Positions 11,517-54,342 of a stretch of DNA of 64,000 bases are shown piece after piece. The notes beneath the pieces were generated by a model that saw nothing but the letters and a program-made list of their open reading frames with translations, had not been told where the DNA came from and made no database searches. How positions within the stretch are numbered: the first letter of the stretch is position 1; each line of letters opens with the position of its first letter. The DNA comes from Thermodesulfobacteriota bacterium (GTDB lineage: Bacteria; Desulfobacterota; Desulfobulbia; Desulfobulbales; JBFMBH01), in NCBI GenBank assembly GCA_040755095.1, contig JBFMBH010000001.1, forward strand, positions 95,176-159,175, written 5' to 3'. A program made the translations under genes and the position numbers.

Positions 11517-12653
11517 GTGAATGACGTGCTGATCCGAAGAAGCGTATTGTTGGCAGGTCTTTTGGCTCTCGGCATCGCGGCTCCGACCAGCGCCCGGGTC
11601 ACGGGCTTTCTGTGCAGCAACTGCCATACCATGCACAACAGCCAGGACGGCGGGCCAGTGGTCCGGACCGGGCTGGGCGCCGGCTGGGACAGCGGCACCC
11701 TGGACGGCGGCCTGCCGGGCGACCCCCAGGCGTCTCTGCTCCGGACCGATTGCGTCGGCTGCCACACCAGCGCCGGCACCGACACCATCGTCACGGTGGG
11801 CGGCTCCCGCATCCCCATCGTCTACAACCTGATGGCGCCGGTGGACCCGCTGGCCGGCGGCAATTTCTACTGGGTGGCCCACGATGGGGACAGCCGCGGC
11901 CATAACGTCCGCGGCATCTCCAACGCGGACGGGACCCTGGCCGTGGCGCCGGGCGCCATCGGCTGCTCCAGCAGCTGCCACACCTCCCTGGCCCTCACCG
12001 ATGCCCAGACCTATGGCCAGCGCCGCAACGGCTGCCAGGGCTGCCACAACAGCGTCAGACACCATGGCCAGGACGACGCCGGGGTGCCGGTCACGGCAGA
12101 CGGTGGCTGGTACCGCTTCCTGAGCGCCCCCTCCGGCCACGACATGCTGGGCGGCGCCGGGGTCAACGGCATCGAGGACCCGGACTGGGAGCAGCAGCCC
12201 ACCGCCAACGCCCACAACCATTATTACAGCGGCACCGGTGCCGACAACGACACCCCCCAGTCCATCGGCAAGTTCTGCGCCGGCTGCCACTACAACTTCC
12301 ACTCCCCGGGCTTCTCCACCACCTTCATGGGCACCGACAACGGCGGCGGCAGCAACCCCTGGCTGCGGCATCCGTCGGATGTGGTCATCCCCAACGAATA
12401 CGAGTTCCAGGCCTTCACCGTCTACGATCCCCAGGTGCCGGTGGCTCGGCCCGAGGCCAGCCTGACCGGTTTCGATCCTGCCACCGTCCGTCCCGGCACC
12501 GACCGGGTCACCTGCATCTCGTGCCACCGCGCCCACGGCAGCCCGTACAACGACATGCTGCGCTGGGACCGCACCACCATCACCACCGGCGCCACCGGCG
12601 CGGCGGCCGGCACCGGCTGCTTCCGCTGCCACACCAGCAAGGACGGCCAGTAG
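11517..12653 (+). CDS. Small secreted multihaem cytochrome c (6 CxxCH + 1 CxxxCH)
   Basis: 378 residues from GTG 11517; GTG 11526 or an upstream GTG are alternatives. A signal peptide (R-R-S-V-L-L-A-G-L-L-A-L-G-I-A) is followed by haem motifs CSNCH, CVGCH, CQGCH, CAGCH, CISCH and CFRCH. The irregular CSSSCH may hold a seventh haem. The segment C-H-R-A-H-G-S-P-Y-N-D-M-L-R-W is repeated nearly exactly in the paralogue at 31445-32560, which aligns over its whole length. In known systems such proteins carry electrons in the periplasm or outside the cell. It lies behind a putative activator-dependent promoter and is the first gene of cytochrome cluster 1. The gap to the next gene is 638 bp, so that gene probably has its own promoter. 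Confidence 0.88.
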   Translation: MNDVLIRRSVLLAGLLALGIAAPTSARVTGFLCSNCHTMHNSQDGGPVVRTGLGAGWDSGTLDGGLPGDPQASLLRTDCVGCHTSAGTDTIVTVGGSRIPIVYNLMAPVDPLAGGNFYWVAHDGDSRGHNVRGISNADGTLAVAPGAIGCSSSCHTSLALTDAQTYGQRRNGCQGCHNSVRHHGQDDAGVPVTADGGWYRFLSAPSGHDMLGGAGVNGIEDPDWEQQPTANAHNHYYSGTGADNDTPQSIGKFCAGCHYNFHSPGFSTTFMGTDNGGGSNPWLRHPSDVVIPNEYEFQAFTVYDPQVPVARPEASLTGFDPATVRPGTDRVTCISCHRAHGSPYNDMLRWDRTTITTGATGAAAGTGCFRCHTSKDGQ

Positions 12654-13291
12654 GCGGCAAGGCCCCGGAGGGCCCCGCGCGACCCGGCAGGGGTCCGACC
12701 CGCCGGCGGCCCTCCCGCACCGGCCAGACCTCCCCCCCGGAGGCCGTGGCCGGCCGCTTTCGTACCGCCCCCCCGACCGCAGACCTCTCCTGACGCTGCT
12801 GAGCCTCTTCCCCGCCCTCTCTTTCCGGCCCTGACCTGGCGCCGCCGCTCCCGAGGCCGGCCGTCTGCTACCGCGCCGCCTGGATGTGAAGCTGGTCCAC
12901 ATTACCCCCTTCTTCGCCATAGACCTGCGACTGGCCTTATCCTGCCATTTTTCCTACCATAATTGATCGCCAACGGACGCCTTTCCCAGCCGCGCCCCCG
13001 GCCGTCCCCGGTGGCCGACGCCCCGCGTCGTTACGGTGAAGCGGGATTCAGCCATCAAGCCGGCGGCCTGCTGCCCCCGGTGCTTATCCTCTGTTTAGCT
13101 GTGAATAAACCTTCACCATATAGAGACCGGCTTTGCCGTCATGTTAGACTGATCGTGGGATCGCTTGCCGGTCAGCGAGGCGGCCCCGCGCCCTGCCCGG
13201 TCCCGGCCGGCCGGCTGCCGCTCGGCTCGGGCACCTCGGTCCACGACGGCCGGATGCTGAGCCGGGGCACGGCCCGCCCATGGAGTCAGTC
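12654..13291. other. Intergenic region between small cytochrome and NHL gene
   Basis: This 638-bp stretch shows no convincing gene on either strand. Its first ~250 bp are very C-rich with small imperfect hairpins (for example CCTCC-N5-GGAGG) that may end the cytochrome transcript. The middle is less G+C-rich. The right part holds the putative promoter at 13101-13150 and a ~135-base leader to the NHL gene in which I recognise no riboswitch. Confidence 0.5.
13101..13150 (+). promoter_or_regulatory. Putative activator-dependent promoter of the NHL / giant cytochrome operon
   Basis: A perfect dyad GTGAA-N6-TTCAC (13101-13116) lies ~37 bp upstream of an extended -10, TGTTAGACT (13142-13150), with no good -35. 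The GAATAA core starts exactly 42 bp before the -10 hexamer, as it does at the first cytochrome promoter. Transcription would begin near 13157. Confidence 0.45.
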
Positions 13292-15688
13292 ATGAGAACC
13301 TTCCCCATCCGCATGCTCCCCCTGGCCGCTGTCCTGCTTCTGGGCTTGGCGGCATCGTCCCAGGCCGGCACCCTGGCCGGCGACTATCCTCGCCTGGCCT
13401 CGATCCGTACCGGCAAGATCACGGCCATGGCCCTGGACGGCGCGGAGCAGCTCTGCCTGCTGGAGGCGGGGGGAAGCCGTCTTCTGGTCACAAGCCGGCA
13501 GGGCCGGGTGCAGGCCAGCCTGGCCGGACTGGCCGACCCGATCAGCCTGGCGGCCGACCGCCAGGGCCGCTGGTACGTAGGCAGCGCCGAGACCGGCTCG
13601 GTGGAGGTGCTCGGCCCCACCCTGCGGCAACCCTTTGCCCTGGGTCAAGGCGCCGGGGAATTCGGGCGGCCGAGCGCCATTGCCGTGAGCCGGGCCGGCA
13701 CCGTGTACGTGGCCGACAGCAAGGAGCAGCAGATCAAGGTCTTCGACCCCGCCGGCCGGCGGCTGTTCGCCTTCGGCTCCCCGGGCAGCGGCAACGGCTC
13801 CTTCCACTTCCCCACAGCCCTGGCCATCGACGAGGCAGCCGGCGAGGTGGTGGTGACCGACCTGCCCATCATCACCTCGCCCCGGGGCCCCCACGAGGGC
13901 GCCCGGGTGCAGTTCTTCACCCTGGACGGCGGCTATCGGCGCAGCTTCGGCACTTACGGCACCGGCGCCGGCCTGCTCATGAAGCCCCTGGGCGTGGCGG
14001 TGGATGCCGCCGGCCGGGTGCTGGTCAGCGATGCCCAGCAGGGGGTGGTGCAGGTGTTCGACCGTCAAGGCGCCTTCATCGGCACCCTGTACGACCCCGA
14101 GCATCCCTTGCGCACCCCCCTGGCAGTGGCGGTTGGCCCGGCCAGCGGCCAGCTCTTCGTCGCCTCCCTGAACAGCGGCACCGTGGAGGTCTACGGCCCG
14201 TCGCCGGAGCCGATCGTCCATGTCCTGGCCTCGGCCGGCGGCCGTGTCACCCCCTCCGGCGACATCCCGGTGCCCTTCGGCCAGGATCTCTCCCTGACCC
14301 TGGCCCCGGACCCGGGCCATCACGTGACCCAGCTGCTGGTGGACGGGAGCGACGCCGGCGCCCGGACCGCCTACACCCTGGCTGCGGTCACCGCGGACCA
14401 TACCGTCGAGGCGCGCTTCGGCCGGGACAGCTTTGCCATCGCGGCTTCAGCCGCGGCGGGCGGCCGGATCGCGCCGGCGGGGCAGGTGCCGGCGCTTTTT
14501 GGCGACAGCCCCGTCTTTGCCATCACCGCCGATCCGGGCTTCGAGATCGCCGACCTCCTGGTGGATGGCATCTCGGTGGGTGCCACCGGCACCTATACCT
14601 TCACCCGGGTGACGGCCAGCCATACCATCCGCGCCCTGTTCCGGCCGGTGGCAGTGACCCGGACCTTCGAGGTGGCGGTGGCGGTGGCCGGCGCCGGCGT
14701 CGTCGAGGCCAGCGGCATCCGCTGCCCGGGCGACTGCACCGAGACCTGTGCCGGCGGCACCGAGCTGGTGCTGGTGGCCGCTGCCGCGCCGGAGCAGGTG
14801 TTTGCCGGCTGGGGGGGGGATTGCGCCGGCACCGGCCTGGAATGCCGCCTCACGGCGGACAGCCCCAAGACCGTCACCGCCCGCTTCGTGCCGGCCGCCG
14901 ACCTGGACACCTTCGAGGCCGAGGGCCCGTCCAGCCTGCCGTGGCTTACCGGCGGCGACAGCCCCTGGACGCGGCAGGCCGTGGCGAGCCATTCCGGCAC
15001 CATGGCCATGGCGGCCCCGACCCTGGCTCCGGGCCAGATGAGCTTCCTCGAGGTGCCACTTGCGACCACGACGGCCGGCGAGGTGACCTTCTGGTCCAGG
15101 ATCGTGGCCGAGCCAGGGATGAGCGCCCTGCGCTTCCTGGTGGACAACGTCGAGCTGGGCCGCTGGTCCGCCGGCCAGGATTGGACCGACGCCGGCTTCA
15201 ACATCCCCGCCGGCAGGCACGTCTTCCGCTGGGAGTATCTGCAGGCAGAAGGCCAGGGCTTCGACGGCCTGTGGCTGGACGATGTCATCTTCCCGGCCCA
15301 CCTGCCGCCGGCGTGGCCGCTCCCCGACCTCAAGGTCAACCATGGCGATGGCCCTCTGCTCCTGGGGGCGGGCGGCCAAGCCCTGGTGAGCGTGGCGGTG
15401 GCGGCAGGCCCGCAGGCCGGCAGCCCCAGCACCGGGTACCTGGCCCTCAAGGGTGGCAAGAGGCTGTTCTTCCTCGATGGCGCCACCGGCCTCTGGCAAC
15501 TGCGACCCGCAGCGCTGGCGGCAGCGCCTCTGGCCGAAGACAGCTTCACCCACACCCGGGTGGCAGACCTGGGCGGCTTGCCCGCCGGGCTCTACACCCT
15601 CTATTACGTCACCGATGTGGCGCCGCCCGGGGCGGCGAGCCACCTGATCGCCGCCGATCAGGCAGTGATCCAGGTACGCCGGCGCTGA
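13292..15688 (+). CDS. Secreted NHL-repeat propeller protein with bacterial-repeat domains and a C-terminal beta domain
   Basis: 798 residues from ATG 13292 (GGAG lies 6 bases upstream; ATG 13280 is in frame too). A signal peptide ends ...ASSQAG. Residues ~30-305 form about six NHL blades (recurring V-Y-V-A-D-S / V-L-V-S-D-A and V-x-V-F-D patterns). Three 'bacterial repeat' modules follow, with G-G-R-V-T-P-S-G, V-D-G and H-T-V-E-A-R-F patterns. A beta-sandwich-like segment then gives the sequence up to a final ~110 residues starting D-L-K-V-N-H-G-D-G-P-L. This end resembles the ends of the proteins at 32584 and 51334. There are no haem motifs. The next gene, a giant cytochrome, starts 56 bases later, so the two are likely co-transcribed. 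NHL propellers commonly bind proteins or carbohydrates and accompany cytochromes in other deltaproteobacteria; the role here is inferred. Confidence 0.85.
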   Translation: MRTFPIRMLPLAAVLLLGLAASSQAGTLAGDYPRLASIRTGKITAMALDGAEQLCLLEAGGSRLLVTSRQGRVQASLAGLADPISLAADRQGRWYVGSAETGSVEVLGPTLRQPFALGQGAGEFGRPSAIAVSRAGTVYVADSKEQQIKVFDPAGRRLFAFGSPGSGNGSFHFPTALAIDEAAGEVVVTDLPIITSPRGPHEGARVQFFTLDGGYRRSFGTYGTGAGLLMKPLGVAVDAAGRVLVSDAQQGVVQVFDRQGAFIGTLYDPEHPLRTPLAVAVGPASGQLFVASLNSGTVEVYGPSPEPIVHVLASAGGRVTPSGDIPVPFGQDLSLTLAPDPGHHVTQLLVDGSDAGARTAYTLAAVTADHTVEARFGRDSFAIAASAAAGGRIAPAGQVPALFGDSPVFAITADPGFEIADLLVDGISVGATGTYTFTRVTASHTIRALFRPVAVTRTFEVAVAVAGAGVVEASGIRCPGDCTETCAGGTELVLVAAAAPEQVFAGWGGDCAGTGLECRLTADSPKTVTARFVPAADLDTFEAEGPSSLPWLTGGDSPWTRQAVASHSGTMAMAAPTLAPGQMSFLEVPLATTTAGEVTFWSRIVAEPGMSALRFLVDNVELGRWSAGQDWTDAGFNIPAGRHVFRWEYLQAEGQGFDGLWLDDVIFPAHLPPAWPLPDLKVNHGDGPLLLGAGGQALVSVAVAAGPQAGSPSTGYLALKGGKRLFFLDGATGLWQLRPAALAAAPLAEDSFTHTRVADLGGLPAGLYTLYYVTDVAPPGAASHLIAADQAVIQVRRR

Positions 15689-15744
15689 TGGCCTGGCACC
15701 GGGCGGGTGCCGGATCGCGCCATGAAGGGAGCGAGGGTCCGAGG

Positions 15745-18700
15745 ATGGGCACGAAGGCAGGCATGAAGACGACCATGCGCACAAAGGCGGCCCTGGCGGC
15801 CCTTTTCTTCGGGCTGGTCCTGGCTGCGCCGGCGGCGCTGGCGGACCAGCTCGGTATCGACTACCCCCATTACCAGCCGTCGGGGGTGGGCTGCGACTCC
15901 TGCCACTACATCGCGGAGGAGCCGCCGGCCTGGGTCTCCCACGTGGCCCAGGACATCGACGACACGCCGTCCAACAACCTGTGCTGGAGCTGCCACAACG
16001 ACGTGCGCGCCCAGTTTGTGGAGCCCCATTCGGCGCTGACCACCAGCACCCGCTATGGCACCACCTGGTCGGTGGAATGCCGGACCTGCCACTGGCCGCA
16101 CCACCAGCTGCAGCCGCGGACATACGGCGCGGCCAGCCACGTGGCTGCCGGCAGCTCCACCGCCCTCACCGCCAATAGCCTGAGCCTTGCCGGCGCCGGC
16201 TGGATCCCGAACAGCTTTGCCGGCTATCTCCTCATCCCCAACACCAGTCAGCTCAGCTACAGCTACCGGATCACCACGAGCACCAGCGACACGGTCTGGG
16301 TCGAGCCGGCCATGGACCTGAGCAAGGCCGCGGTGGGCAACCCCTTTGCCATCGTCTACGGCAAGCTGGTGAAGAACAGCCTTGCCACGCCCAACAGCGG
16401 CACGAAGACCGTGCGGCTCTTCCGGCGGGAAGGGCCCAACTCCTTTGCCGACGGCGATGCCACCTACGACGGCGTCTGCGAGGTCTGCCACACCCAGCCC
16501 AGCCACTTCCGCAACAACGGCGCCGCCCCGGACCAGCTGCACAACAACCTCAACGGCTGGCAGGGGGGCAACTGCATCCTGTGCCACACCCATGCCAACG
16601 GCTTCGGTCATGGCCCGGATGGCGGCGGCACCGCCTGTGCCGACTGCCACGGCAAGGACCAGGACCAGGGCGGCAAGGGCTCCTTTCAGAGCCACTCCAC
16701 CCACACCGAGACCGACGCCGACGACCTCAAGGGCGCTGGCGGTCTCCTTTGCAACGCCTGCCACGACACCACCGACTATCCCTTCTTCAAATCCGGCACC
16801 GACATAAGCGGCGACGGCCGCCTCAGCCTGGCGGAAACGGACGTCTGCGACACCTGCCACAGCCCGGGCGGCGCCTACGATGGCGTGAACGCCCCGGCCT
16901 CCGGCGCCAAGGCCAACTGGAAGAACGGGATCTATGCCGGCCTGGGCCTGCGGCCGGGCAAGGAGACGTGGTGTCTGGGCTGCCACGATGACCTGCCAGC
17001 CAACAGCCGGCAGGACGGCTCCGGCATCGTTGCGCCCAACAAGGCGGGGGATGGCCTCACCTACGGCTATTTCCTGACCGGCCATGGCCGCACGACCCCC
17101 TTCAACGCCACCCTGCATGGCCAGAACGGGCCGGGCTATGCCTGCGCCGTCTGCCATGAGACGACCGCAAGCCATCTCAACCACACCGCCGGTGACCGGC
17201 GGCTGATGGCGGTGCCCGGCGACGGCCTTGCCTCCACCTCGGCGGCCACCGAAGTCTGCCAGGACTGCCACCAGGTCGGCCAGAGCGCCAACGGCGCCCT
17301 GGGCTTTGACGCCAGCGCCGAGGCGACGATCCATTCCGGCGCCATCACCGGCAAGTACAACACCAACGCTGCCGCCGCCTTCCCGGCCTACGGCAACAGC
17401 GCCGACTACGCCACCAGCCCCGGCTACCAGTGCGAGGACTGCCACGATGTCCACGGCACCGGCAAGCTGGCCATGCTGCTGCCGGTCATCGACGGCCGCC
17501 TGGCCGGCGCCAGCAATCCGGTGGCGATCACCGGCCTCGGCTCCGCGGACAGCGATCTTCTTGATCTCGACCCCGCGGCAGGGCCGGACAACGGCGTCTG
17601 CGACGCCTGCCACCAGGCGGGCAACGATCCCCATCCGGACACCAGCCATGCCGGCAACCACTACCAGGGCGAAACCGGCAACGCCTGCATGGCCTGCCAC
17701 ACCCACACCCGCTCCTTTGCCCATGGCGGCGGCGCCGGCATGAGCTGCGGCACCGCCAACTCCTGCCACGGCACCTTCGACTCGCACCCCACCCACGTCA
17801 AGGACAGCGCCATGGTGCTGGTGGACTGCGATGCCTGCCACAACACCGGCAGCTTCCCGACCTTCGCCGACGGCCAGACCCTGGCCGGCACCTCGGTCTG
17901 CGCCGGCTGCCACGGCGGTGGCTCGGCCCTGGCCAAGACCTACTGGCAAAGCCCCGGCTCCGAGGCCATGGCTGCCGGCAGCTGGCTGGCGGTGGAGGGG
18001 GATGCCAACTACTGCGGCACCTGCCACGGCGGCAACGAGAGCGCCGACCACAACAACCTCAATGCCTCGGCGGGCTGCAGCAGCTGCCACCAACCCCTGG
18101 GCACCAAGGTCGAGATGCTGGCTCTCCACAATGGCGCCGCCTGCTCCACCTGCCACCTCTCGGCGGACGTGGCGGTCACCGCCACCATCAGCACCGGCAA
18201 GTCCGGCGGCGGCAACACAGCGGTCCAGTGCACCTCCTGCCACACCGGGCCGGGGGGCAATGCCATGCATGGCCTGGCCACCATCGATGCCGAGCTGCAG
18301 GCGCGGCACAACATGCTGTCCGTGTCCGCCAATGCCGGCAGCGATCCGGCCGACTGCGCCATCTGCCACACCATGGGCTCGGCCCAGGCGAGGCTGGACC
18401 TTCATCCCGGCTGTCTGGCCTGCCACACCAGCGCCGATCCGGATGTGGTGGCGGCGATCAGCGGCGGCATCGCTGGCAGCACGATCAACTGCGAGACCTG
18501 CCACGACGCCCAGGGTGAAAACCGACTCCACGGCCTGACCATTGCCGCGGTGGCCGGCGACCACACCGGCTTCGGCACCAGCCATACCGGCGAGAGCGCC
18601 TGCGGCAACTGCCATCTCATGGCCACGGCCAGCGACAGCCTGGATCTGCACCCCGCCTGCTCCAGCTGCCACACCACCCATGCCACGGATGCCACGCTCC

Positions 18701-22926: not shown

Positions 22927-22966
22927 CCCCATCCGCCGTCGCCCCACCGGTCTTCCCCCGCCCACG

Positions 22967-23377: not shown

Positions 23378-24589
23378 ATGCTCCGTTTTCTTCTGTGCTC
23401 CATCCTGGCGCTGGTGCCGGTGATCGCCCATGGCGCGGCGCCGGGCTTCTTGTTGAAGAAGGCAGGCACCCTGTCCGGCCAGGTCTTCGTGGACAACGCG
23501 CCGCTGGCCAACGCTGTCGTCGCCTTCTTCCTGGAGGCCAAAGGGCTGCCGCCGGTCCATCCCGGCATGACCCGGGTGCCGGAGGCCCTGGGTCGCCTGG
23601 ACGGGGACGGCCGCTTTGCCGTCCGGCTGGCCCCGGGCAGCTATTACCTGGGCATGCTGCAGCGGGATCCGGCGGCAGGACCGGGGCCGCCCCGGCCGGG
23701 AGAGGCGTTCTATTTCGCAGCCGATCCGGAAAGGGCGACGCTGCGGGTCTTCACCCTGGCCCGGCAGGAGACCCTGGACCTGGGCCGGATCGACGGCCTG
23801 CCGCCGGAGCGCCTTGCCGGTGTCCCGGCGCCGGCGGTCTTCACCGCCCGCGGCCGGCTGCTGGATGGCCAGGGCCAGCCGGTGGCAGGGGCGGTGGTGC
23901 TGGCCAAGCGGCATCTCGATGTACCCCGGCCGGATGTGGCCTCGGCCCGCACCGGCGCGGACGGCGCCTTCACCCTGGCCCTGCCGGCGGAGACGCCCTT
24001 CTTCCTGGTGGCCCGGGAGACCATGGCTGGCGGCCGGCCGCAGCCGGGGCAGCTGGTCGGCACCTATGGCATCCGTTCCGAGACCGGGTTCTTCCCGGCG
24101 ATGTTTGGCGGGGAGGCCGGCGACGGCCAGGGGCTGAGCGCCGGCACCCGGCCGCAGACCGTGGCCGGCGCGGCCGGCGAGACGCGGCCGGATCTGGAGA
24201 TCGTCATGTACCCGGTACCGGATCCGGCGGCCATCAAGGCCTCCCTGCAGGGCGCCTTCACCGGCCCCGCCAGCGAGGCGGCACCGGATCTGGGGCCCAT
24301 CCCCTTCGCTGTTGGCGGGGACCGTTTGGACGAGGGAGGGGCGGCGATCCTCGACCGCTGGGCCGGTCTTCTGAGTGCCCGGGCGACGACGCAGGTGGAG
24401 GTCCGGGGCTATGCTGACGACGCCGGGGCGGCGGTCGCCAATGAGGAGCTGGCCAGGCAGCGCGCCCGGCAGGTGGCCGACTATCTGGCGGGCAAAGGGA
24501 TTGCCCGGGAACGGCTCACCGTCCTGGGCGTGGCGGGCGGCGGCCGGCGGGTGGAGATCCGGGCCAAGGCCCGGGAGGAGGAGCGATGA
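23378..24589 (+). CDS. OmpA-domain protein with carboxypeptidase-regulatory-like beta domains
   Basis: 403 residues from ATG 23378. The signal peptide is followed by two beta-sandwich modules of the carboxypeptidase regulatory type (L-S-G-Q-V-F-V-D-N-A-P-L-A-N-A-V-V and A-R-G-R-L-L-D-G-Q-G-Q-P-V-A-G-A-V-V). The last ~110 residues are an OmpA/MotB domain with R-G-Y-A-D-D and N-E-E-L-A-R-Q-R-A, which in this family binds peptidoglycan. It is therefore likely periplasmic, holding the outer layers to the cell wall. The stop codon overlaps the next start by four bases (ATGA), so translation is coupled. A link to the cytochrome system is suggested only by position. Confidence 0.82.
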   Translation: MLRFLLCSILALVPVIAHGAAPGFLLKKAGTLSGQVFVDNAPLANAVVAFFLEAKGLPPVHPGMTRVPEALGRLDGDGRFAVRLAPGSYYLGMLQRDPAAGPGPPRPGEAFYFAADPERATLRVFTLARQETLDLGRIDGLPPERLAGVPAPAVFTARGRLLDGQGQPVAGAVVLAKRHLDVPRPDVASARTGADGAFTLALPAETPFFLVARETMAGGRPQPGQLVGTYGIRSETGFFPAMFGGEAGDGQGLSAGTRPQTVAGAAGETRPDLEIVMYPVPDPAAIKASLQGAFTGPASEAAPDLGPIPFAVGGDRLDEGGAAILDRWAGLLSARATTQVEVRGYADDAGAAVANEELARQRARQVADYLAGKGIARERLTVLGVAGGGRRVEIRAKAREEER

Positions 24590-45300: not shown

Positions 45301-48300
45301 GGTGGACCGCAGCGCTGGGGAGTGGACCGTCTACGCCCAGGGCACCGGCCTGACCACGAGCAGCTACTTCTACTGGGCGCCGGGCTGGGGCCTGGACCAG
45401 GAGGCCAGCAACGCGTACAGCCAGCTGGCCCATGGCCTGCAGCGCTACACGAGCTACTTCCAGGCCTACGAGCTGGGGGTGAACCGGGGCTACACCACCC
45501 CGGCCCGGTACTGGAGCCCCAACTACCCGTACGAGAACAAGGTGGTGCTGCTGCCGACCGGCGGCGCCCGCTACTACATCCGCGGCGGCACCGGTGGCGC
45601 TTACGTCTACAACACCTGGACCCTGGTGCGGGACACCGTGACGCCGGTCATCACCAACAGCCCCTTGCGGCCGGCGATCTTTGCCGACTACTGCGAGGCA
45701 GACGTCCACATGTTCGCCGCCTTTGCCGGCGACATCCTGGAGCTGACCGGCAACACGGGCGGCGCCGAGGCCTCCGCCTGCTTCGCCCTGCCCCGCCAGT
45801 GGCAAAGCCAGCCCTCGGCCATCGTCTCGGTGAGCACCCCGGCCAAGGCCGCGCCCGGGCCGGTGACCGTCACCGCCCTCTCCGAGTCCGAGCTGCTCCT
45901 GGATCTGGCCGTCAACACCACTGACGAGACCGGCATCGAAATCCTGCGCTGTGCGGACACCGGCTGCACCCCCAACCCGGTCACCGACCAGATCGCCGAT
46001 TTGTCCGGCAGCCTGGCCATGCTCCTGTCCATGGAGGAGAACGCCTGGACCGGGGCGGCCGCCGAGGTCCGGGACTCGTCCGGCAACGGCAACCACGCCA
46101 CGGCGGTGAACGGCGCCACCACGGCGGCCGGCGGCCACCGGGGCCGGGCCGGCACCTTCAACGGGGTCAACCAGTACCTGGTCGTGCCCCACAGCGCCAG
46201 CATGAATCCCACAAGCGGCCTCACCATCGAGGCCTGGATCAGGAGCGGCCTGGCCACCTGGAGCGCCAACGCCAGCCTGGTGGCCAAGCGGAACGCCTAC
46301 ATCCTCAACCCGCTGTCGGACGCCACCAAGGCGATGCGCCTCTCTCTCTACGTGGGCGGCAGTTGGACCACCGTCTCCTACGTACCCCCGGCCGAATTCG
46401 ACATCCAGCAGTGGCACCATTACGCGGCCAGCTTCGACGGCAGCATGGTGCGCATCTATGTGGACGGGGAGCTGGCCACCTCCCAGACCCTGGTGGGCAC
46501 CATCAACGCCGACACCGGGCCGGTCTACATCGGCTCCGACGATCAGGCCGACTACACCGATCGCTACTTCAACGGCCAGCTGGACCAGGTGGCCATCCAC
46601 TCCCGGGCCCTGTCCGATGCCGAGGTCCGGTACCGCTACGGGACCTTCAAGGACAACAACCTGGCCCGGGGCGCCACCTACGGCTACCAGGTCCGGGCCT
46701 ACAAGGACGCCTCCTGCCCCTGGACCAGCAGCTACAGCGCCACGGCCGAGGGCACCACCAACGGCCCCCAGCCGCCCGCCGACATCATTGCCAACCCGGT
46801 GAATACCACCCGCGTCGACCTGGGCTGGACCGACACCAACGGCTCGAATACCGCCTATGTCATCGAGCGCTGCGCGGGCCTGGGCTGCGTCGACTTTGCC
46901 GAGATCAAGCGCACCAGCGGCGACGATGTGGCCTACGCCGACCAGGAGGTCTGCAAGGGGACCTCGTATGCGTACCGCTTCAAGGCCATCTCCGAGGTGT
47001 ACAACCCGGTCTTTGCCAGCCCGCCGGGCAAGACCAACTTCTCCAACGACAACACCGGCAAGTGGTCCAAGCGCCAGTCGGTGACCATCGCGAACTGGGT
47101 AGCCAGCTATGTCATGCGGATCACCGTCCCCTTCCAGGAGGGGATGAGCGCCGATTTCGCGGACCTGCGCTTCTACGACGCCACCGCCCAGGTGGAGCTG
47201 CCTTACTGGATCGAGTCCAAGACCGATGGCGTCTCGGCGGAGGTCTGGATCAAGACCGGTGCCAACGATGCCACCTACCTGTACTTCGGCAACAACCGCG
47301 CCACCTCCAGCAGCGATGGCGATGCGGTCTTCGACTTCTTCGACGACTTCCGGGGTCCGGTCATTGACAGCAGCAAGTGGGTGGAGATCGATACCGCCTC
47401 CAATGCCATCACCCAGAACGACGACCTCATCCTCAATGACGTGGCGGATGCCTGGAGCTTCGCCCTGTTGTCCAAGAACCGTTTCGCCCGCACGGCCGGC
47501 AAGCAGCTCTGGGCCGCGGTGGGCATCCCGGCGGACACCGCCGGTAACAACTACTTCTATGTCGGCTGGGGCCTCAAGCAGCCGGTGGAGCCAGGGAGCC
47601 CGCCCAACAGCCCGGCCACCAGCTACTGGATGCACGGCATCTACTTCACCAACTATTACTTCTATTCCGGCGACCGGGCCGGCTCGACCTACAACTCCGG
47701 GCTCACCTACGCCCAGAGCACCGAATACGAGGTGACCGTGCAGCTCAAGGCCGCGGGGGCCACCTGGAAGAGGCGGCCGGTGGGCGGCGCCTTCACCACC
47801 CTCCGGGATTCCACCTCGTACTCGGACACCGACATCCGGGTGGCGGTCCACCAGCACTCCCACTCGGCCCGGATCCACTGGCTGGGCATCCGGCCCTATG
47901 TGGCGGCCACCGAGCCGACGGTGAGCGCCTATGGCGGGGTGGAGACAGCTCCTCTGGACTGGGAGAGCGTCTGGAGCGATCCGCCGGTGACCGCCAGCAC
48001 CCCGGACGTCATCGCGCCGGTGCTGGACAGCGCGACCCGTTACTCGGAGGCCAGGATCGATCTGGCCTGGACCTGGAGCGACGCCACCTCCGACGAAACC
48101 GGCTTCGAGATCGAGCGCTGCGATGGCGGCAGCTGCTCGACCTTCACCGTGCCCAGCGATATCACCGGCTGGGAGGATGCCGGCATCTTCGAAGGCATCA
48201 ACTGGTGCTACCGGCTGCGGGCGGTGAAGACCGCCAGCTGCGCCTGGTCCGGCCCGTGGAGCAACCAGGTCTGCGCCGCCAGCACCGTGCTGGCGCCCAC

Positions 48301-51300
48301 CGTGCTCCAGGCCTCCACCCAGGCCGCCAACACCACCCAGGTGGATCTGACCTGGACCGACAACACCAACTCCGAGGGCGGCTTCCGCATCGTCCGCTGC
48401 CCCGGCACCTGCAGCGACACCGACACCTTCACCGAGGTGGGCACCGCCGGCGCCAACCAGCGGGCCTTCAGCGACACCACCGTCTGCCAGGGCAGTACCT
48501 ATTCCTACCGGGTGGAGGCCTACACCGCCGGACCGGTGACCGGCCTGTCCGCGGGGGGTGGCGGCACCTGGACCCGGCGCAAGAACGTCACCGCCTTTGC
48601 GCCCGCCTTCCAGGCCAGCTCCCAGTTCCAGGTCGCGGTGGCCTACGACGCCGACATGCAGGCCGACTTCGACGACCTGCGCTTCGTGGACGAGACCGCG
48701 GGCACGGAGCTGCCGTACTACATCCTGGAAAAGACCAACGGGGTGAGCGCCCTCATCTGGGTCAAGACCGGTGCCAACAGCGTCATCAACCTCTATTACG
48801 GCAACCCCCTGGCCACCGGCGCCAGCAGTGCCAGCACCACGTTGATCGACTTCAGCACCAGCAGCTTCGGCTCCTTTGCCACGGACCATCAGAACAGCAC
48901 CGGCTTCGTGATCGAGGCCAAGGCGACCCGGTCTACCTACACGCCACAGATCGAATTTGACAAGACCGGCAACGGCTCCGAGCGCAGCCGCATCGATTAC
49001 AACACCTCCACCATCTACCGCTACGACTTCAATGCCGCCAACGGCACGATCTATTCCGCCTCGATCGGCCTGGCCGGGGCGGCCGAGCCGCTGCACATGA
49101 AGGTCGCGGTGAAAGACCAGAGCCTGTGGGTCTACGCCGACAACGTGCAGAAGATGACCGCCGCCAACCTGTCCTATACCCGCGGCACAGTGGCCTGGAC
49201 CCGGAACAACTCCGCAGTGGTCTACAGCTACATCCTGGTCCGCCGCTACGTAACCTCGGAGCCGGCGACCGGCCCGGCCTTCACCCTGGGCAGCGAGGAG
49301 GTGGCGCCGGTCCGGGCCTGGACCTCCGGCCGCAGCAACGTCGCCACCGCCACCACCGCCACGCCCACCGCGCCCGGCATCCTCACCGCCACCGCCGACA
49401 ACGAGTCCCAGGTCACTCTCACCTGGTCGGACGCCAACCCGGACGAGTCGTCTTTTGTGGTGGAGCGGGGCGACGCATCCTGCAGCAACTGGGCCGATGC
49501 CGGCACCACCGCCGGCCCCAACATCTTCACCTTCACCGACACCAACGCCGGTGCCGGCCTGGCCCACAACACCACCTACTGCTTCCGGGTACGGGCCCAC
49601 AAGTCGTCGTCCTGTCCCTGGGACGGTCCGGCGAGCGGCACCCTGACCGCCTACACCGCCATCCCGGCGCCCACCGGGCTCACCGCCACCACCAAAGAGA
49701 CGGCCCGGATCGATCTGGCCTGGAACGACACCGCCGGCCTGGAGACCGGCTACGAGATCAGCCGCTGCACCGGGGATGAGGCCTATTGCATGGCCGATCC
49801 GGACAACCGCTTCGACCCGGCACCGGTGGCCACTACCGGCCCGCAGGCCACCAGCTTCAGCGACACCACCGCCTGCCCCGGCAACACCTACACCTACCGG
49901 GTGCGGGCGGTGAAAAGCGGGGTGTGGCAGTCCAACTACAGCCTGCCGGCCAGCGCCAGCACCGGCAGCCCGGTGCCCCCTGCCGGCCTCACCCTCACCG
50001 AGGTGCTGAACGAGGGGGCGGATCAGCGCCGCATCGACCTGGCCTGGACCGACAGCAACCTCGATGAATACGGCTTTGTCATCGAGCGCTGCGACAACAC
50101 CCTGACCGATTGCGACCTGGACGTGAGCTTCGTCCTGCAGGGCAGCGTCACCAGCCGCGACCTCTTCACCGCCGGCATCGACGCCGGGCTCTGGAGCCAG
50201 ACCGGCATCGTCAGCACCCAGACCGCTACCACCCCGCCGATCCTGGCCAGCGACTCCTCGGGCACTGCCCGCATCGATGCCGTGGCCGGCGCCGTTGAGC
50301 TGGCGGTCAGCTCCGCCGGCACCGGGGCCAACGATACCTACAACGAATCCCGCCTGACCTGGCTCCATCCCGAGCATCTGGGCCAAGGCGACGCCGAGAT
50401 CCGTCTCGACTACCAGCTCAAGAACGGCGAGCTGACCACCACCGCCCAGTACCATGTCCATGGCCGGGTCTACCTGACCTTCCCGACCCGGACCGACTGC
50501 ACCTACGGCTTCATGACCGTCAACTGCCAGCAGCCCGACATGGCCTACGTGGAGCGGATCTACACCACCGGTGGCGGCTCGAAGTACAACGCCGTGGTGC
50601 GGGTCAAGGATGTCACCACCACCAACGCGGTGGTCACCACCGACACCGCCGGCACCCTGCGCCTCACCCGCACCGCCGGTGTGCTGGCGGCCTCCTTCTG
50701 GAACGGCGCCGGTTGGACCACGCTGGTCACCCATGCCAACACCCTGCAGGCGGGTACGACGCCCAATGGGCTTTCGGTCTCCGCCTTTGCCGAGCGCAAC
50801 GAGAACGTTTCTCTGCGCACCGCGGTGGACAACCTGCAGCTCATCGCCGCCGCCCCGTGGTACAGTGACACCACCGAGGTGGCAGCCTCCACCGACTACT
50901 GCTACCGGGTGCGGGCCGATCACCCCAGCCTGTGCGCCGAGTGGGATGACCTTTTCACCGCCACGGTCTGCGATCTGTCCAACCCGGCGGCCCCCACTGG
51001 CCTCGCCGCCACCACCCTGGGCTCCCGCCGCATCGGCCTCACCTGGGTCGACACCTCCAGCGACGAGAGCGGCTTTGTCATTGAGCGCAAGGTCTTCAAC
51101 AGCACCTTCGCGCCGGTGGGCACGGCGGCTGCGGGTGCCCAGGCCTTCGAAGACAACCAGGCCCTGGATCCCGGCAAGACCTACATCTACCGGGTGCGGG
51201 CCTACCGGGGCGACCCGGCCAGCTACTCCGCCTACTCCAACCAGGCCTCGGCCGCCACCGACCCGTACGGTGAGCCGGGTGGTGATGATTCCACCTGCCG

Positions 51301-51313
51301 GACAGTGCCGTAG
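39314..51313 (+). CDS. Giant secreted fn3 / LamG / DUF2341 / propeller protein (3999 residues)
   Basis: 3999 residues from ATG 39314 (GAGGAG upstream). A long signal peptide ends near residue 44. Two propeller-like regions (residues ~45-478 and ~583-1032) repeat V-Y-V-A-G and N-V-I-V-T-G. About 15 fn3-type modules follow or intervene, each with a W-x-D-x-x-x-[DN]-E-T-G-[FY] core, and many have an E-R-C-x-G-x-x-C pair that could form a disulphide. Two LamG-like domains occur near 1290-1515 and 2230-2440, and three DUF2341 domains near 1850, 2580 and 3090 (A-D-F-D-D-L-R-F pattern). No haem motif, transmembrane anchor or sorting tail is seen at the C-terminus, which ends ...DDSTCRTVP. The protein is probably a secreted surface or matrix adhesin that binds carbohydrates or cells. 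The module mix is typical of large deltaproteobacterial surface proteins. Confidence 0.88.
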   Translation: MRLSQSQQHGKRPRPSGTGHAAWRACALLGLAILLAWPAAALAAGGTELWRFVDTRANGQEAVAGAVDHDGNVVVTGFSQSEPNDFFTAKFKYDGTGLLWTAAGGYTDARATAVAIDSAGNVIVTGYASNGVNLDLVTVKYDGATGAVVWQNRYNAPANGTDYATAVTLDPLGNVYVAGYGQGSGGADDGLLIKYGPDGPNVDGTPIWAITGISAGSGHDRLVAVAASSDGIAVAGHTWNGADFDFLTMKYNPDGTAAWPAEVTWGSGFGSDQLEKVGLDGSGNVIVTGFARNASANDDIRTVKFSSANGTQLWQRTYATTAGSYPDVPKALAVDAAGDVYVAGSTFTATGLVDFYVARYQAADGIPVWEVPYHSGGNNTDIPSALFVDPDGDVYVTGSTHEDAANQDDWRTVKLQRDNGNLLWTKELNGAAGKNDKAVGLGLATTPAGDVRLFAGGWSDRWTAGATDYEFAAAAYDPGLLNAPTGLAATTVTSTRIDLAWTDNSSNETGFRIYRTTEPSHTYEAGDLLQTLGAGAQSYQDTTVVTGTRYYYIVKAYESAGGTESHPSNEATARALIITYDAPSWTYVYAGAGGSDDKAMNINVGADLEPVVTGSSCAAAGNPDYYTVKLDNANASVLWSHRYDDPDGEVDEACCLAVDGSNDYVVSGTSSLYSSTSGINTNDIYSFKLDVNGPPQFGSPTLWQGKYDGPSGGDDRSVSIASAVDGSNSVVLAGYGHQPATGDDIYVVKYAENPPLDGFDMAIPAWSAVYAGAGNDYPSAVAFDGNGDVIVAGETHNGTDYDIFIRKHAGTDGQILWTVIGNSHSAGGDDELNALAVDRAGNVYVAGYVTNGAQGEDFFVSKHSATDGAELWSGGKTLQGSLAGGADVAVAVAVDGTQDAEEIMVAGSLQNGAGNRDFVLVRYATDGTALWASPKVLDRPANDDQAFAMSLDNTGTVCLVGTTSNGASTDALAMKYDFEGTLLGATLYNDAANDLDAVTRVAANRYGEAYAAGFRTNAAGNYDYLVLRCLGSVVQAPAPFGATAYYNHVDFTWADNSPNETGFRLERQVGACGPANPNPWELRHQPTNPAAPDYLAYTESNLTIGDQFCYRIRTEKGVEISRWVEHQVATVEPPAPTGVTATAKSTTRVNLSWQDETLGEDSFVIERCSGAGCSDFALLAEVPAETEASIDTSACPGTLYRYRVFAKKTNLWTSAYSAIAEATTASVTAPTGLAGSVVSEGRVDLSFSDTNGNETGFHLYRCQGAGCTPSVPADLAGTITLETAPAGSSLFLHMDEAAWNGTTNEVADSSGGNRHGTASGASTAAGLYDRAGSFNGSTAAVSIPDNAGLDFGASTDFTIEAWIRASANASQQRLAGKGGDVNGTRVPGYALGTLNNALYLEIAATNLGVTSLQTVTGLAVVRDDAWHHVAAVVDRDGNASLYVDGVLDRSEPITVPGTVDNAAAFYVGKKSDDADTNNLQYFAGLADELVVYNQALTVAQVEARFHREVAIRTTQTDTPLMPGTVYRYGVTAFRTDGCGGSGWESSLSAIFQATTDDVVTTRNPGILVASRDTVEVTTDIDLGWQDRSGTEEGFAIERCTGTCGTGDPYSQIGTADANAVTYTDSTACQGTYTYRVRAFHSSAPVWTSEPSTLSTASTLSQAAPSGLTATRLTEQQVRLDWTRNTSDETGFVIERCAGAGCADFAPITPYGTTGRGVVTFTDSRLLPDTIYRYQVRAYKTGPCAWTSDPSSAAQADLAINTAGFGLSAQALNTTAVDLFWTDVTSDETGYRIERCNGTCGAGDTWTALAGAGAAANATTYSDQTVCENSTYSYRLRALDQDFAKGFDGCWTARKPVSFSSHQAGRVAEFTVTWADGMQADFDDLRFYHFFSPAQTDGEIIPHWIRTRSNGVSAVVWVKLPADNDNIFLYYGNAAATDGSAPEEVFFFYDGFAGTTIDTAKWKELDTYNTMSQNNGLQIRQVGAVRNAALIAKSGYKVDRSAGEWTVYAQGTGLTTSSYFYWAPGWGLDQEASNAYSQLAHGLQRYTSYFQAYELGVNRGYTTPARYWSPNYPYENKVVLLPTGGARYYIRGGTGGAYVYNTWTLVRDTVTPVITNSPLRPAIFADYCEADVHMFAAFAGDILELTGNTGGAEASACFALPRQWQSQPSAIVSVSTPAKAAPGPVTVTALSESELLLDLAVNTTDETGIEILRCADTGCTPNPVTDQIADLSGSLAMLLSMEENAWTGAAAEVRDSSGNGNHATAVNGATTAAGGHRGRAGTFNGVNQYLVVPHSASMNPTSGLTIEAWIRSGLATWSANASLVAKRNAYILNPLSDATKAMRLSLYVGGSWTTVSYVPPAEFDIQQWHHYAASFDGSMVRIYVDGELATSQTLVGTINADTGPVYIGSDDQADYTDRYFNGQLDQVAIHSRALSDAEVRYRYGTFKDNNLARGATYGYQVRAYKDASCPWTSSYSATAEGTTNGPQPPADIIANPVNTTRVDLGWTDTNGSNTAYVIERCAGLGCVDFAEIKRTSGDDVAYADQEVCKGTSYAYRFKAISEVYNPVFASPPGKTNFSNDNTGKWSKRQSVTIANWVASYVMRITVPFQEGMSADFADLRFYDATAQVELPYWIESKTDGVSAEVWIKTGANDATYLYFGNNRATSSSDGDAVFDFFDDFRGPVIDSSKWVEIDTASNAITQNDDLILNDVADAWSFALLSKNRFARTAGKQLWAAVGIPADTAGNNYFYVGWGLKQPVEPGSPPNSPATSYWMHGIYFTNYYFYSGDRAGSTYNSGLTYAQSTEYEVTVQLKAAGATWKRRPVGGAFTTLRDSTSYSDTDIRVAVHQHSHSARIHWLGIRPYVAATEPTVSAYGGVETAPLDWESVWSDPPVTASTPDVIAPVLDSATRYSEARIDLAWTWSDATSDETGFEIERCDGGSCSTFTVPSDITGWEDAGIFEGINWCYRLRAVKTASCAWSGPWSNQVCAASTVLAPTVLQASTQAANTTQVDLTWTDNTNSEGGFRIVRCPGTCSDTDTFTEVGTAGANQRAFSDTTVCQGSTYSYRVEAYTAGPVTGLSAGGGGTWTRRKNVTAFAPAFQASSQFQVAVAYDADMQADFDDLRFVDETAGTELPYYILEKTNGVSALIWVKTGANSVINLYYGNPLATGASSASTTLIDFSTSSFGSFATDHQNSTGFVIEAKATRSTYTPQIEFDKTGNGSERSRIDYNTSTIYRYDFNAANGTIYSASIGLAGAAEPLHMKVAVKDQSLWVYADNVQKMTAANLSYTRGTVAWTRNNSAVVYSYILVRRYVTSEPATGPAFTLGSEEVAPVRAWTSGRSNVATATTATPTAPGILTATADNESQVTLTWSDANPDESSFVVERGDASCSNWADAGTTAGPNIFTFTDTNAGAGLAHNTTYCFRVRAHKSSSCPWDGPASGTLTAYTAIPAPTGLTATTKETARIDLAWNDTAGLETGYEISRCTGDEAYCMADPDNRFDPAPVATTGPQATSFSDTTACPGNTYTYRVRAVKSGVWQSNYSLPASASTGSPVPPAGLTLTEVLNEGADQRRIDLAWTDSNLDEYGFVIERCDNTLTDCDLDVSFVLQGSVTSRDLFTAGIDAGLWSQTGIVSTQTATTPPILASDSSGTARIDAVAGAVELAVSSAGTGANDTYNESRLTWLHPEHLGQGDAEIRLDYQLKNGELTTTAQYHVHGRVYLTFPTRTDCTYGFMTVNCQQPDMAYVERIYTTGGGSKYNAVVRVKDVTTTNAVVTTDTAGTLRLTRTAGVLAASFWNGAGWTTLVTHANTLQAGTTPNGLSVSAFAERNENVSLRTAVDNLQLIAAAPWYSDTTEVAASTDYCYRVRADHPSLCAEWDDLFTATVCDLSNPAAPTGLAATTLGSRRIGLTWVDTSSDESGFVIERKVFNSTFAPVGTAAAGAQAFEDNQALDPGKTYIYRVRAYRGDPASYSAYSNQASAATDPYGEPGGDDSTCRTVP

Positions 51314-51333
51314 GCTGACGTGAGGTGACCGCC

Positions 51334-54300
51334 ATGTTTTGGCCGCCAGCCAGAATCGCCATCCTCATCCTGGTCGCCCTGGGCCTGCCGCTGCCAGGGA
51401 CCGGTCAAGCTGCGGCCCTGGGCCGGCCAGCCGCGACTGGCCTGCCGCTCTGGCTGCCCTTTGTGGAGACCGGGGGCCGGCCGGCCGATCCGGCCATCCG
51501 CGTAGCCAGCCTGAGCCCTGCCGGCAGCGTTGGGGTCACCGCCAGCGGCGAGGTGGTGAGCATCCTGCCGGGCCCGGCCGGCACCCCCCCCTGGGTGCTG
51601 CGGGAGCGCCTGGCCGGCGGCCGGCCGCAGCTGGTCATGGACGACCCTGCTGTTGCCGGCCGCGCCGCCCTGTTCCGGGGCCGCGACCCCGGCGGCTGGC
51701 AGGGCGGCCTGCCCACCAGGAGCACGGTGTCGATCCGGGATGCCGGCCAAGGGGCTTGGCTGGAGCTGGTGGTGGGGCCGAGCGGTGTGGAGCGGTTGTT
51801 TCACGTGGCGCCGGGAACAGACCCGGCCACGGTCCGGATGGCGGTGGCCGGCGTCGAGGCCATGGCGGTAGCCGCCGATGGCAGCCTGACCCTGAACAGC
51901 GGCCGCGGCCAGTACCGCCTCAGCCCGCCCCGGGCCTTCCAGGAGGACGCCAGCGGCCGGCAGCCGGTGGCGGTGGCCTTCCGGGTCGAGCCCGGCGGCT
52001 ACGGCTTTGCGGTCGGGGACTACGACCCCAGCCGGGAGCTTGTTATCGACCCGATCCTGGCCGGCACCTTTGTCGCCGCCACCGCGCCCCCCGAGCCGGA
52101 TCTCCCGTTTACCCCGCTGGCGGTGGATGGGGAGGGCAACATCATCGTCGCGGCAGCAATCCCGGCCCTGGCCTTGCCGGCCGAGGACGGCGGTTGGGCG
52201 ACCGGGCCCGCCGGTGGCCTGGACATCCTGGTGGCCAAGCTCGATCCCGGGCTTTCCCGGCTCCTGGCCTGGACCCTGATCGGGGGCGCCGGGGACGACT
52301 GGCCACGGGATCTGGCCATCGCCGCCAACGGCTCCGTCCGCCTGGCCGGGGTGACCAGCTCGCCGGATTTTCCCGCCACCTCCGGGTCGCAGCCGTTTGC
52401 CGCCGGCTTTCGCAACGCCTTCGTCCTGTCTTTGGACCGTGAGCTCCAGGTGCTGGAGGCCTCCCTGCTGCTCGGCGGCGGCGATGCGGTCGCCCTGGCT
52501 CACACCCCCATGGGGGAGCTGGTGGTGACGGGGCGGACGCCGGCGCCCGATTTTTCTGCCACGCCAGGCAGTCTGGACACCTCCCTGGACGGCGCCATCG
52601 ACGCCTTTGTCACTGTGTGCGACACCCGGCTGCAGACGATTCTGGCCAGCACCTTCCTGGGCGGCAGCGGCGGGGACATGGGCATGGCGGTGGCGGTGGA
52701 GGACGACGGCAGCATCCTGGTGCTGGGCGTCACCGACTCGCCGGACTTCCCGGCCCCGGCCGGCATTCAGCCCCTGGCCAGCCGGGGGGAGCTCGATCTC
52801 TTTCTGGCCCGCCTGGACCCCGGCCTCTCCCGGATCCTGGACGCCACCCTCCTGGGCGGCTCCGGCAACGATCTTGGCCAGGGCCTGGTGGTGGCGGCCA
52901 ACGGCTCGGTGTTCGTGACCGGTGCCACCAGCTCGCCGGACTTCCCCGTCACCGGCGGCTCCAGCCATCGGGGCGGAGAGGAGGACCTTTTTGTGGCCTG
53001 GCTGGACCCCAGCCTGCGTCATGTCACCGCAACCCTGGCCGGCGGCAGCGGCCCGGACCGGGGCCTGGACCTGGCCCTGGACAGCCAGGATCGCCTGCTG
53101 GTGGTCGGCCAGACCGGCTCGGCTGACCTGCCGGTCTCGGCCAATGCCCTGGACCCGAGCCTGTCCGGGGGGAGCGACCTCGTGGTGGCGGCCTTTGACC
53201 GGGCCAGTCTGGGCTTGCTGCAGATGACCTATCTGGGAGGCAGCGGCGGCGAGCAGATGCCGCGGCTGGCCGTGGAGGCCGGCGGCCGGCTGCTCCTGGC
53301 GGGCTTGAGCGACTCGCCGGACCTGGGCCTGCCGCCGGCGGCCTGGCAGCCCACTCCGGCTCCGGGGCCCAACGCCCTGCTCCTGGCCCTGGAGCCGGGC
53401 CTGACCGGCGACCTGGCGCCGGTGGTGGCGCTGGGCCCGGCGGCACCGGCTTGGCCGGCGGTGCTGGTGGGGTCCACCGCGAGCCTGCCTCTTACCATCC
53501 GCAACTCCGGCAACACCGTCCTGGCCCTGGAGCAGCTGACCGTGGCCGGCAGCCAGGCGGCGGAATTCCGCCTCCAGGAGGACACCTGCAGTGGCCGCCT
53601 GCTGCCGCCGGACGGCGTCTGCTCCCTGCAGCTCGCCTTCACCCCGGCTGCGGCGGGCGAGCGCCAGGCGGTGCTGGCGATCCCCTCCAACGCCTTGCCC
53701 CGGCTCCTGGAGGTCTCGCTCACGGGCACCGGCCAGCTACCGGCCAGCCACCATACCCTGGTCATCTTTCGGGATGGCTCCGGCCGGGGCACGGTACGCG
53801 CAACCGACCGGACCATCGACTGCGGCAGCCTGTGCAGCGCCGCCTTTGCCCACGGCACCCGCCTGACCCTGGAGGCGGTGCCGGATCCCGGCTCGGTCTT
53901 CGAGGGCTGGGTGGGGGGGGGCTGCGCCGGCACCGGCGCCTGTTCGGTGAGCGTGGATGAGGATCTGGCGGTGAAGGCCACCTTCCGCAGCACCGGGCCG
54001 CAAAGCGACGCCCGGGCCAATGGCGGCGACGATCCCCTGACCGTGAGCCGGCAGGAGACGGTGGCCTTTTCCATCCGTCTTACGGCCAACGAGGCCCTGG
54101 ACCTCGCCGCCGACTGGTGGATCGTCCTGGCCACCCCGGCCGGCGCCTACTCCTGGGTCTATCCCAAGGGCTGGCGGCTCGGGGTCAGCCGGGCCTTCCG
54201 GGCCCCCCTCTTCGACCTTGACGAGACCACCCTCTTGGCCTCCCGTCTGCCCGCCGGCTCCTACGGCTTCTTCTTCGGGGTTTCCGGCTATGCCGGCAGC

Positions 54301-54342
54301 CAGACCGCCAACGTCGATGACGTGCAGGTGGTGGTGCGCTGA
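51334..54342 (+). CDS. Secreted SBBP-type propeller protein with Hydin-like and C-terminal beta domains
   Basis: 1002 residues from ATG 51334 (GAGG eight bases upstream; GTG 51325 is also in frame). A signal peptide ends near ...GTGQAAA. An N-terminal beta domain ends in V-I-D-P-I-L. Residues ~240-690 hold SBBP repeats (G-G-S-G-x-D-x-G and V-T-G-x-T-S-S-P-D-F-P). An immunoglobulin-like Hydin/ASPM-type module (L-T-I-R-N-S-G-N-T-V-L), a bacterial-repeat module and the shared C-terminal domain (N-G-G-D-D-P-L-T-V ... A-A-D-W-W-I ... P-K-G-W-R ... P-L-F-D-L ... L-P-A-G-S-Y) follow. The start is 20 bases after the fn3 gene stop codon, so the two are likely co-transcribed. It is probably a surface protein. 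Confidence 0.86.
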   Translation: MFWPPARIAILILVALGLPLPGTGQAAALGRPAATGLPLWLPFVETGGRPADPAIRVASLSPAGSVGVTASGEVVSILPGPAGTPPWVLRERLAGGRPQLVMDDPAVAGRAALFRGRDPGGWQGGLPTRSTVSIRDAGQGAWLELVVGPSGVERLFHVAPGTDPATVRMAVAGVEAMAVAADGSLTLNSGRGQYRLSPPRAFQEDASGRQPVAVAFRVEPGGYGFAVGDYDPSRELVIDPILAGTFVAATAPPEPDLPFTPLAVDGEGNIIVAAAIPALALPAEDGGWATGPAGGLDILVAKLDPGLSRLLAWTLIGGAGDDWPRDLAIAANGSVRLAGVTSSPDFPATSGSQPFAAGFRNAFVLSLDRELQVLEASLLLGGGDAVALAHTPMGELVVTGRTPAPDFSATPGSLDTSLDGAIDAFVTVCDTRLQTILASTFLGGSGGDMGMAVAVEDDGSILVLGVTDSPDFPAPAGIQPLASRGELDLFLARLDPGLSRILDATLLGGSGNDLGQGLVVAANGSVFVTGATSSPDFPVTGGSSHRGGEEDLFVAWLDPSLRHVTATLAGGSGPDRGLDLALDSQDRLLVVGQTGSADLPVSANALDPSLSGGSDLVVAAFDRASLGLLQMTYLGGSGGEQMPRLAVEAGGRLLLAGLSDSPDLGLPPAAWQPTPAPGPNALLLALEPGLTGDLAPVVALGPAAPAWPAVLVGSTASLPLTIRNSGNTVLALEQLTVAGSQAAEFRLQEDTCSGRLLPPDGVCSLQLAFTPAAAGERQAVLAIPSNALPRLLEVSLTGTGQLPASHHTLVIFRDGSGRGTVRATDRTIDCGSLCSAAFAHGTRLTLEAVPDPGSVFEGWVGGGCAGTGACSVSVDEDLAVKATFRSTGPQSDARANGGDDPLTVSRQETVAFSIRLTANEALDLAADWWIVLATPAGAYSWVYPKGWRLGVSRAFRAPLFDLDETTLLASRLPAGSYGFFFGVSGYAGSQTANVDDVQVVVR

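Follow-up and report, generated by a model that had tools for sequence, protein, structure and literature searches.

Why do the same three genes, for a small cytochrome, a secreted NHL beta-propeller protein and a giant multihaem cytochrome (giant), stand in the same order twice on one stretch of bacterial DNA, and do their products work together? The stretch, called the window here, comprises 64,000 nucleotides of contig JBFMBH010000001.1 from a Thermodesulfobacteriota bacterium (assembly GCA_040755095.1). A sequence-only reading of the window had claimed this repeated order, the paralogy of all three members between the copies and the continuation of copy 2 into a 3999-residue adhesin and an SBBP protein. 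Our analysis bears this out: all genes are in place on the + strand, and the copies share 43% identity in the small cytochromes, 28% in the NHL proteins (E 2e-28) and 29% over 689 aligned N-terminal positions in the giants (E 6e-46). Because the propeller-giant pair occurs eight times in this genome and also in its relatives, the three products probably work as a unit and couple cytochrome wires to the cell surface or to the surroundings. The genes concerned are listed below; start codons are our choice, the one of cyt1 being the least certain.

11517..12653, + strand: cyt1, OmcS-like cytochrome of copy 1; six CxxCH and one CxxxCH; signal peptide by reading; GTG start uncertain
13292..15688, + strand: NHL1 of copy 1; NHL beta-propeller with InlB-like repeats and additional regions at the C-terminus; signal peptide by reading
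15745..22926, + strand: giant1 of copy 1; cytochrome with 35 CxxCH and a C-terminal immunoglobulin (Ig)-like domain (Pfam)
23378..24589, + strand: OmpA-domain protein with a carboxypeptidase-regulatory-like domain, 3' of copy 1; module membership uncertain
31445..32560, + strand: cyt2, OmcS-like cytochrome of copy 2; six CxxCH and one CX5CH; signal peptide by reading
32584..33870, + strand: NHL2 of copy 2; NHL beta-propeller; signal peptide by reading
33978..39179, + strand: giant2 of copy 2; CxxxxCH/CxxCH-type cytochrome with 33 CxxCH and the C-terminus WNNITQW
39314..51313, + strand: 3999-residue secreted adhesin-like protein of the copy 2 run; SBBP propeller repeats, FN3, DUF2341 and laminin-G-like regions
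51325..54342, + strand: SBBP-type secreted protein, last of the copy 2 run

Results

Copy 2 is a tight five-gene run with gaps of 23, 107, 134 and 11 bases, as calculated from the coordinates, and its SBBP-type protein shares a C-terminal domain with NHL2 (42% identity over 112 residues). In copy 1 the spacing is 638 bases between cyt1 and NHL1 and 56 bases between NHL1 and giant1. A promoter and terminator scan of positions 11300-13400 found the gap 12654-13291 empty, which does not settle whether copy 1 is a single operon; its hits were a promoter-like site on the - strand and a terminator-like site within cyt1, one of each.

The genome (4.5 Mb in 255 contigs) shows which of the three genes truly belong together. 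All eight giants that have the N-terminal haem domain in common (approximately residues 27-520 of giant1) sit directly 3' of an NHL gene on the same strand. Places with an OmcS-like gene were counted at E<=1e-10, two of them (on contigs C25 and C98) being truncated at a contig end, and their neighbours were scored in the fetched stretches. Three of the 13 places so found start a cytochrome-NHL-giant run (both window copies and one on contig C5), one comes after an NHL-giant pair (C25), and two, both on C5, adjoin an NHL gene and a 12-haem gene. The constant element is the NHL-giant pair, with a small cytochrome beside four of the eight pairs only. The fixed partnership suspected in the sequence-only reading holds for the propeller and the giant, which are repeated and conserved outside the genome, and only in part for the small cytochrome. 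Weaker giant matches without a same-strand NHL gene directly upstream lie on contigs C4 (E 1e-29) and C17 (E 1e-7). The C17 frame (L150:560-6265, - strand) has 1901 residues, 59 CxxCH and MtrC/MtrF-like domain matches.

The pair was also found in other genomes when the two best giant candidates per genome were scored. At E<=1e-60 a giant is present in 23 of 257 genomes of the class and in 10 of 395 genomes of the phylum (own genome included in each). Forty fetched regions held 32 giant frames. In 19 cases an NHL gene on the same strand lies no more than 2.5 kb away (upstream in 14, downstream in 5), in 11 cases no such gene is that near, and two frames are truncated by the end of their contig. 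L188, counted among the 11, nevertheless carries an NHL gene upstream, from which an 8-haem frame separates the giant. Outside the taxonomic order, L214 and L215 have the pair, L217 has an NHL gene followed by a cut, uncounted giant, and L216 has a giant without an NHL gene. The complete three-gene order, for which a search had been suggested, was recovered as six triads in five other genomes: L182 (on one contig with L049), L184 and L185 (L055, L057), L186, L187 (L051) and L188. Homologues of propeller and giant are thus mostly found together (8/8 here, 19/32 elsewhere), and those of the small cytochrome partly apart. A run of another composition was seen in L064:1-11077, from a Desulfuromonadales metagenome-assembled genome outside the taxonomic order, where an NHL gene, a 20-haem cytochrome and a giant-type 17-haem frame follow each other and the OmcS-like gene is divergent.

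NHL genes accompany OmcS-like genes more generally. An NHL gene lies within 4 kb of the OmcS-like gene in 20 of 79 named loci, or 13 of the 32 with full flanks. The control, taken in the same loci at a distance of 5 kb or more from the cytochrome, gave 378 of 4448 positions. According to their database labels, the 20 loci belong to Thermodesulfobacteriota (13), Nitrospirota (3), Myxococcota (1) and Pseudomonadota (1), two being unlabelled; the two genes adjoin in the cultivated relatives Pelovirga terrestris and Thermodesulfatator autotrophicus (L074, L079). Presumably an NHL gene also adjoins omcS in Geobacter sulfurreducens, where one paper lists GSU2505 only as hypothetical. Neither NHL1 nor NHL2 could be assigned to NCBIfam ScyF, as both scores were below the cut-off. 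A second pattern, with a 26-haem gene, a 16-haem gene, NHL and OmcS-like in succession, was found in six loci (L074, L088, L102, L108, L110, L112) and may correspond to the Oet cluster type, going by the accessible part of its description (PMC10553843); the main text of that paper never mentions NHL or a propeller.

The small cytochromes resemble OmcS, the nanowire protein of G. sulfurreducens. A profile of 11 paralogues from the genome matches OmcS in the PDB (6ef8; E 7.2e-22, profile positions 25-346 to chain positions 8-354), whereas a single-sequence phmmer search of the PDB missed it, and Pfam and NCBIfam gave no match naming the small cytochromes OmcS. The predicted structure of cyt1 has the OmcS fold, at 21-26% identity in structural alignments. 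The six OmcS haem sites are present and colinear in the aligned OmcS-like rows, and six further histidine positions are conserved in every row that has a letter there (41-42 of 41-42). An N-terminal histidine in the motif HTMH is kept in 41 of 41 rows; its OmcS counterpart is one that we take to lie between subunits. As far as the available part of the report on OmcS goes, one haem ligand is supplied by the neighbouring subunit (PMC6584659). Both cyt1 and cyt2 are predicted to polymerise into an extracellular haem wire. Haem sites, their order and the kinds of extra histidines agree with the Geobacter structures (6ef8, 6nef); unlike OmcS, cyt1 carries a seventh motif (CxxxCH), and cyt2 has CX5CH at site 3 and one further CxxCH. 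A similar description is that of DA_402 from Desulfurivibrio alkaliphilus (Desulfurivibrionaceae; PMC12545173): its consulted part presents an OmcS-like protein, predicted to be extracellular, with seven predicted CX2-5CH motifs of which six align with OmcS, and we liken the proteins by this description. The main text of PMC12545173 never mentions NHL or a propeller.

The giants are more variable. The two in the window have 35 and 33 CxxCH, as had been read, but such numbers are not a constant of the partner because the eight family members in the genome range from 12 to 35 (35, 33, 26, 25, 15 or 16 depending on the start, 13, 13 and 12). Giant2 has 1733 residues from an ATG preceded by the Shine-Dalgarno-like AAGGAG and 1764 from the first ATG. 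PF22113 (MtrC/MtrF domain II/IV) is above cut-off in both window giants (E 6e-25 and 3e-12), a score which haem composition may inflate. TIGR01904 and PF09698 (the GSu_C4xC__C2xCH domain) are above cut-off in giant2, and giant1 has no match to either at the thresholds used. Homologues of giant2 occur in Geobacter and Geotalea (54% identity over 49% of the query for the Geotalea daltonii protein annotated with '37 heme-binding sites'), and these large CxxxxCH/CxxCH cytochromes of Geobacter relatives have a similar C-terminal end; giant1, in contrast, has its Ig-like region in that place. The tails of the other giants consist of more haems, of a beta-helix region (the giant on contig C21, Pfam) or, by reading, of laminin-G-like domains. 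The haem-rich giants of L146, L147, L197, L198, L201, L218, L222, L223 and L224 end in the signature WNxV(S/T)xW, which giant2 carries as WNNITQW at 39159-39179 and which may be a sorting or outer-membrane signal. In the structural model of the giant1 N-terminal domain, a beta domain at approximately model residues 106-196 is confidently predicted. The best PDB matches of the model (E of at least 0.025) are unrelated proteins, and this low-confidence fold was not used.

The two copies are old. Their DNA-level likeness is limited to short blocks, the best being 84% over 87 bases. In the giant tree copy 2 groups with genomes G009 and G019 (100/100), in the NHL tree with G009 (90/83, on a long branch) and weakly with G036, and in a quick cytochrome tree cyt2 groups with the triad cytochrome of G253 (Shimodaira-Hasegawa-like approximate likelihood ratio test 99). 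A forced clade of copy 1 and copy 2 is rejected by the approximately unbiased (AU) test for the giants (p-AU 3e-46) and the NHL proteins (5e-8). These placements and the rejected clade indicate that the two triad lineages predate the split of these families, the copies being ancient paralogues. Other pairs, namely copy 1 with its relative on C5 and C33a with C1_35k, look like later whole-pair duplications in the lineage of this genome. Distances between NHL proteins and between giants are correlated over 28 pairs (r 0.65, p 0.0001), part of which must reflect species history, and over the eight own pairs (r 0.96, p 0.0025, leaning on copy 2).

Discussion

The trio is a real, conserved unit built on a known type of nanowire protein, and its partner pair is not described in the literature searched. 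We propose that a predicted wire cytochrome of the OmcS fold is combined here with a propeller and a giant, which would serve as the surface base or contact pad of the wire; in our judgement this proposal has about an even chance of being correct. All three proteins would be exported, as their signal peptides suggest by reading. To judge by the conserved residues, the small cytochromes would stack head to tail, each lending its spare N-terminal histidine to a haem of the following subunit in the manner of OmcS. The N-terminal domain of the giant would act as a dense haem array that collects or passes electrons, and the variable C-terminus of the giant, with more haems or with Ig-like, beta-helix or laminin-G-like regions, would fasten it to its own or a partner cell, to a mineral or to matrix. 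The propeller, being the most constant gene neighbour of the giant, would serve the giant as a partner in docking or assembly, and in units with an OmcS-like gene it would also act as adaptor to the wire. Transfer across the outer membrane would be supplied elsewhere, for example by a locus on C5 (L009).

That locus (L009:5199-15733) holds two OmcS-like genes, an NHL gene, 12-haem and 5-haem cytochromes and a divergent gene for a 747-residue putative outer-membrane barrel. The assignment as a barrel is drawn from how the sequence looks and where it lies; the protein has no Pfam or NCBIfam match, and the genome has no second copy of it at E<=0.001.

Several observations weigh against our proposal. 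For seven of the 13 OmcS-like genes, three of which lie close to or at the end of a contig, the fetched stretches show neither an NHL gene nor a giant nearby. In half of the eight own units there is no OmcS-like gene, and only 5 of the 19 pairs elsewhere have one in the fetched region. Outside this genome, 11 of 32 giant frames lack an NHL gene within 2.5 kb, and the Geobacter-like giants of L218-L223, which are relatives in the C-terminal half, have no NHL neighbour. Among the triads, L188 has its 8-haem frame between NHL and giant, and the L186 cytochrome is cut by a contig end. Without copy 2, the trees of the own NHL proteins and giants agree less well (r 0.44, p 0.023). The model of the giant1 N-terminus is poor (predicted template modelling score 0.46) with no PDB match at E<=0.001, and Pfam gave no porin among the module genes, no beta-barrel predictor having been run. 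Finally, the accessible parts of two publications state that wire formation among the G. sulfurreducens OmcS homologues is known for OmcS only (PMC12977616) and that the physiological role of OmcS is disputed (PMC11077965).

One could argue that the propeller and the giant form an independent surface unit for redox or adhesion, a haem-studded adhesin with its propeller, and that the OmcS-like gene often lies nearby only since surface cytochrome genes cluster. This is possible, though we do not favour it. It would account for the four own units and the 14 of 19 pairs elsewhere with no OmcS-like frame beside them (some regions being cut by contig ends), for genomes G106, G108, G185, G190 and G193, which have giants and NHL genes and no OmcS-like match at E<=1e-20, and for the Ig-like, beta-helix and laminin-G-like tails. 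However, the cytochrome-NHL-giant order was kept in two anciently separate lineages, the second represented here by copy 2 and by L188 with its inserted frame, and NHL genes also adjoin OmcS-like genes without a giant at the full-flank frequency given above, against its control. Quite unlikely is a role in electron storage, with the giants as surface haem capacitors and the small cytochromes as soluble shuttles that form no filaments. The high haem numbers (33-35 CxxCH) and the restriction of known wires to OmcS would fit it, but the invariant HTMH histidine and the predicted OmcS fold speak for a wire.

A recent segmental duplication limited to this genome, with no functional partnership, was named in advance as what would undo the idea of a unit, and we consider it hardly tenable. 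The copies do lie within 28 kb of each other, and several of the eight own pairs look lineage-duplicated. Yet protein identities of 28-43% and the AU tests, under the models used, rule it out for the two window copies, cyt2 goes with G253, and triads exist elsewhere.

No giant partner of the OmcS nanowire is described in the literature looked at, as far as those sources were available. The small cytochrome of the supposedly unrecognised triad proved recognisable as an OmcS-fold protein; the NHL-giant-OmcS-like unit itself did not turn up in the literature search, to which subscription papers were mostly out of reach. The Oet clusters of syntrophic sulfate reducers, in the accessible part of PMC10553843, likewise place OmcS-like genes in a multi-cytochrome cluster, and L009 is a possible relative of them in this genome. 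The two modules of the window, in contrast, show no conduit of the OetABI kind (periplasmic cytochrome, porin and surface lipoprotein cytochrome), and a CxxCH scan found no further multihaem gene in them. In Desulfovibrio ferrophilus, NHL genes lie inside outer-membrane cytochrome clusters (DFE_0451, DFE_0463), but the part of PMC9769857 available to us describes no giant partner and no OmcS-type subunit.

To our knowledge, it is open how nanowires start at the cell and what their far end touches, and also whether OmcS-like proteins form wires outside Geobacter. The propeller gene, which is the constant companion of the giant in this genome and often lies beside OmcS-like genes across several phyla, offers a concrete candidate for a base, a cap or a docking factor. 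A bolder and more doubtful idea is that propeller and giant are the missing base-and-tip hardware of OmcS-type wires: the eight propeller-giant pairs could be interchangeable heads that differ in haem count and tail and connect one shared type of wire to various minerals, cells or matrix surfaces.

Neighbouring genes

A Toxin_R_bind_N match of Pfam (E 5.5e-6) in the 3999-residue protein was taken as a lectin-like fold and not as a toxin. Between the two modules lies a gene for HemB, the delta-aminolevulinic acid dehydratase of haem synthesis (25346-26332). Just 5' of copy 2 and divergent from it, the protein at 30100-31047 (- strand) has a short ResB-like match (cytochrome c biogenesis, E 7e-8). 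An AAA+ ATPase gene (9518-11344) lies immediately 5' of cyt1 and is preceded by an NtrY/NtrX-like pair, named from reading. A small TPR-type protein is encoded 3' of copy 1 (24595-25200), and its paralogue (L010:10321-10872) lies just 5' of the third triad, on C5.
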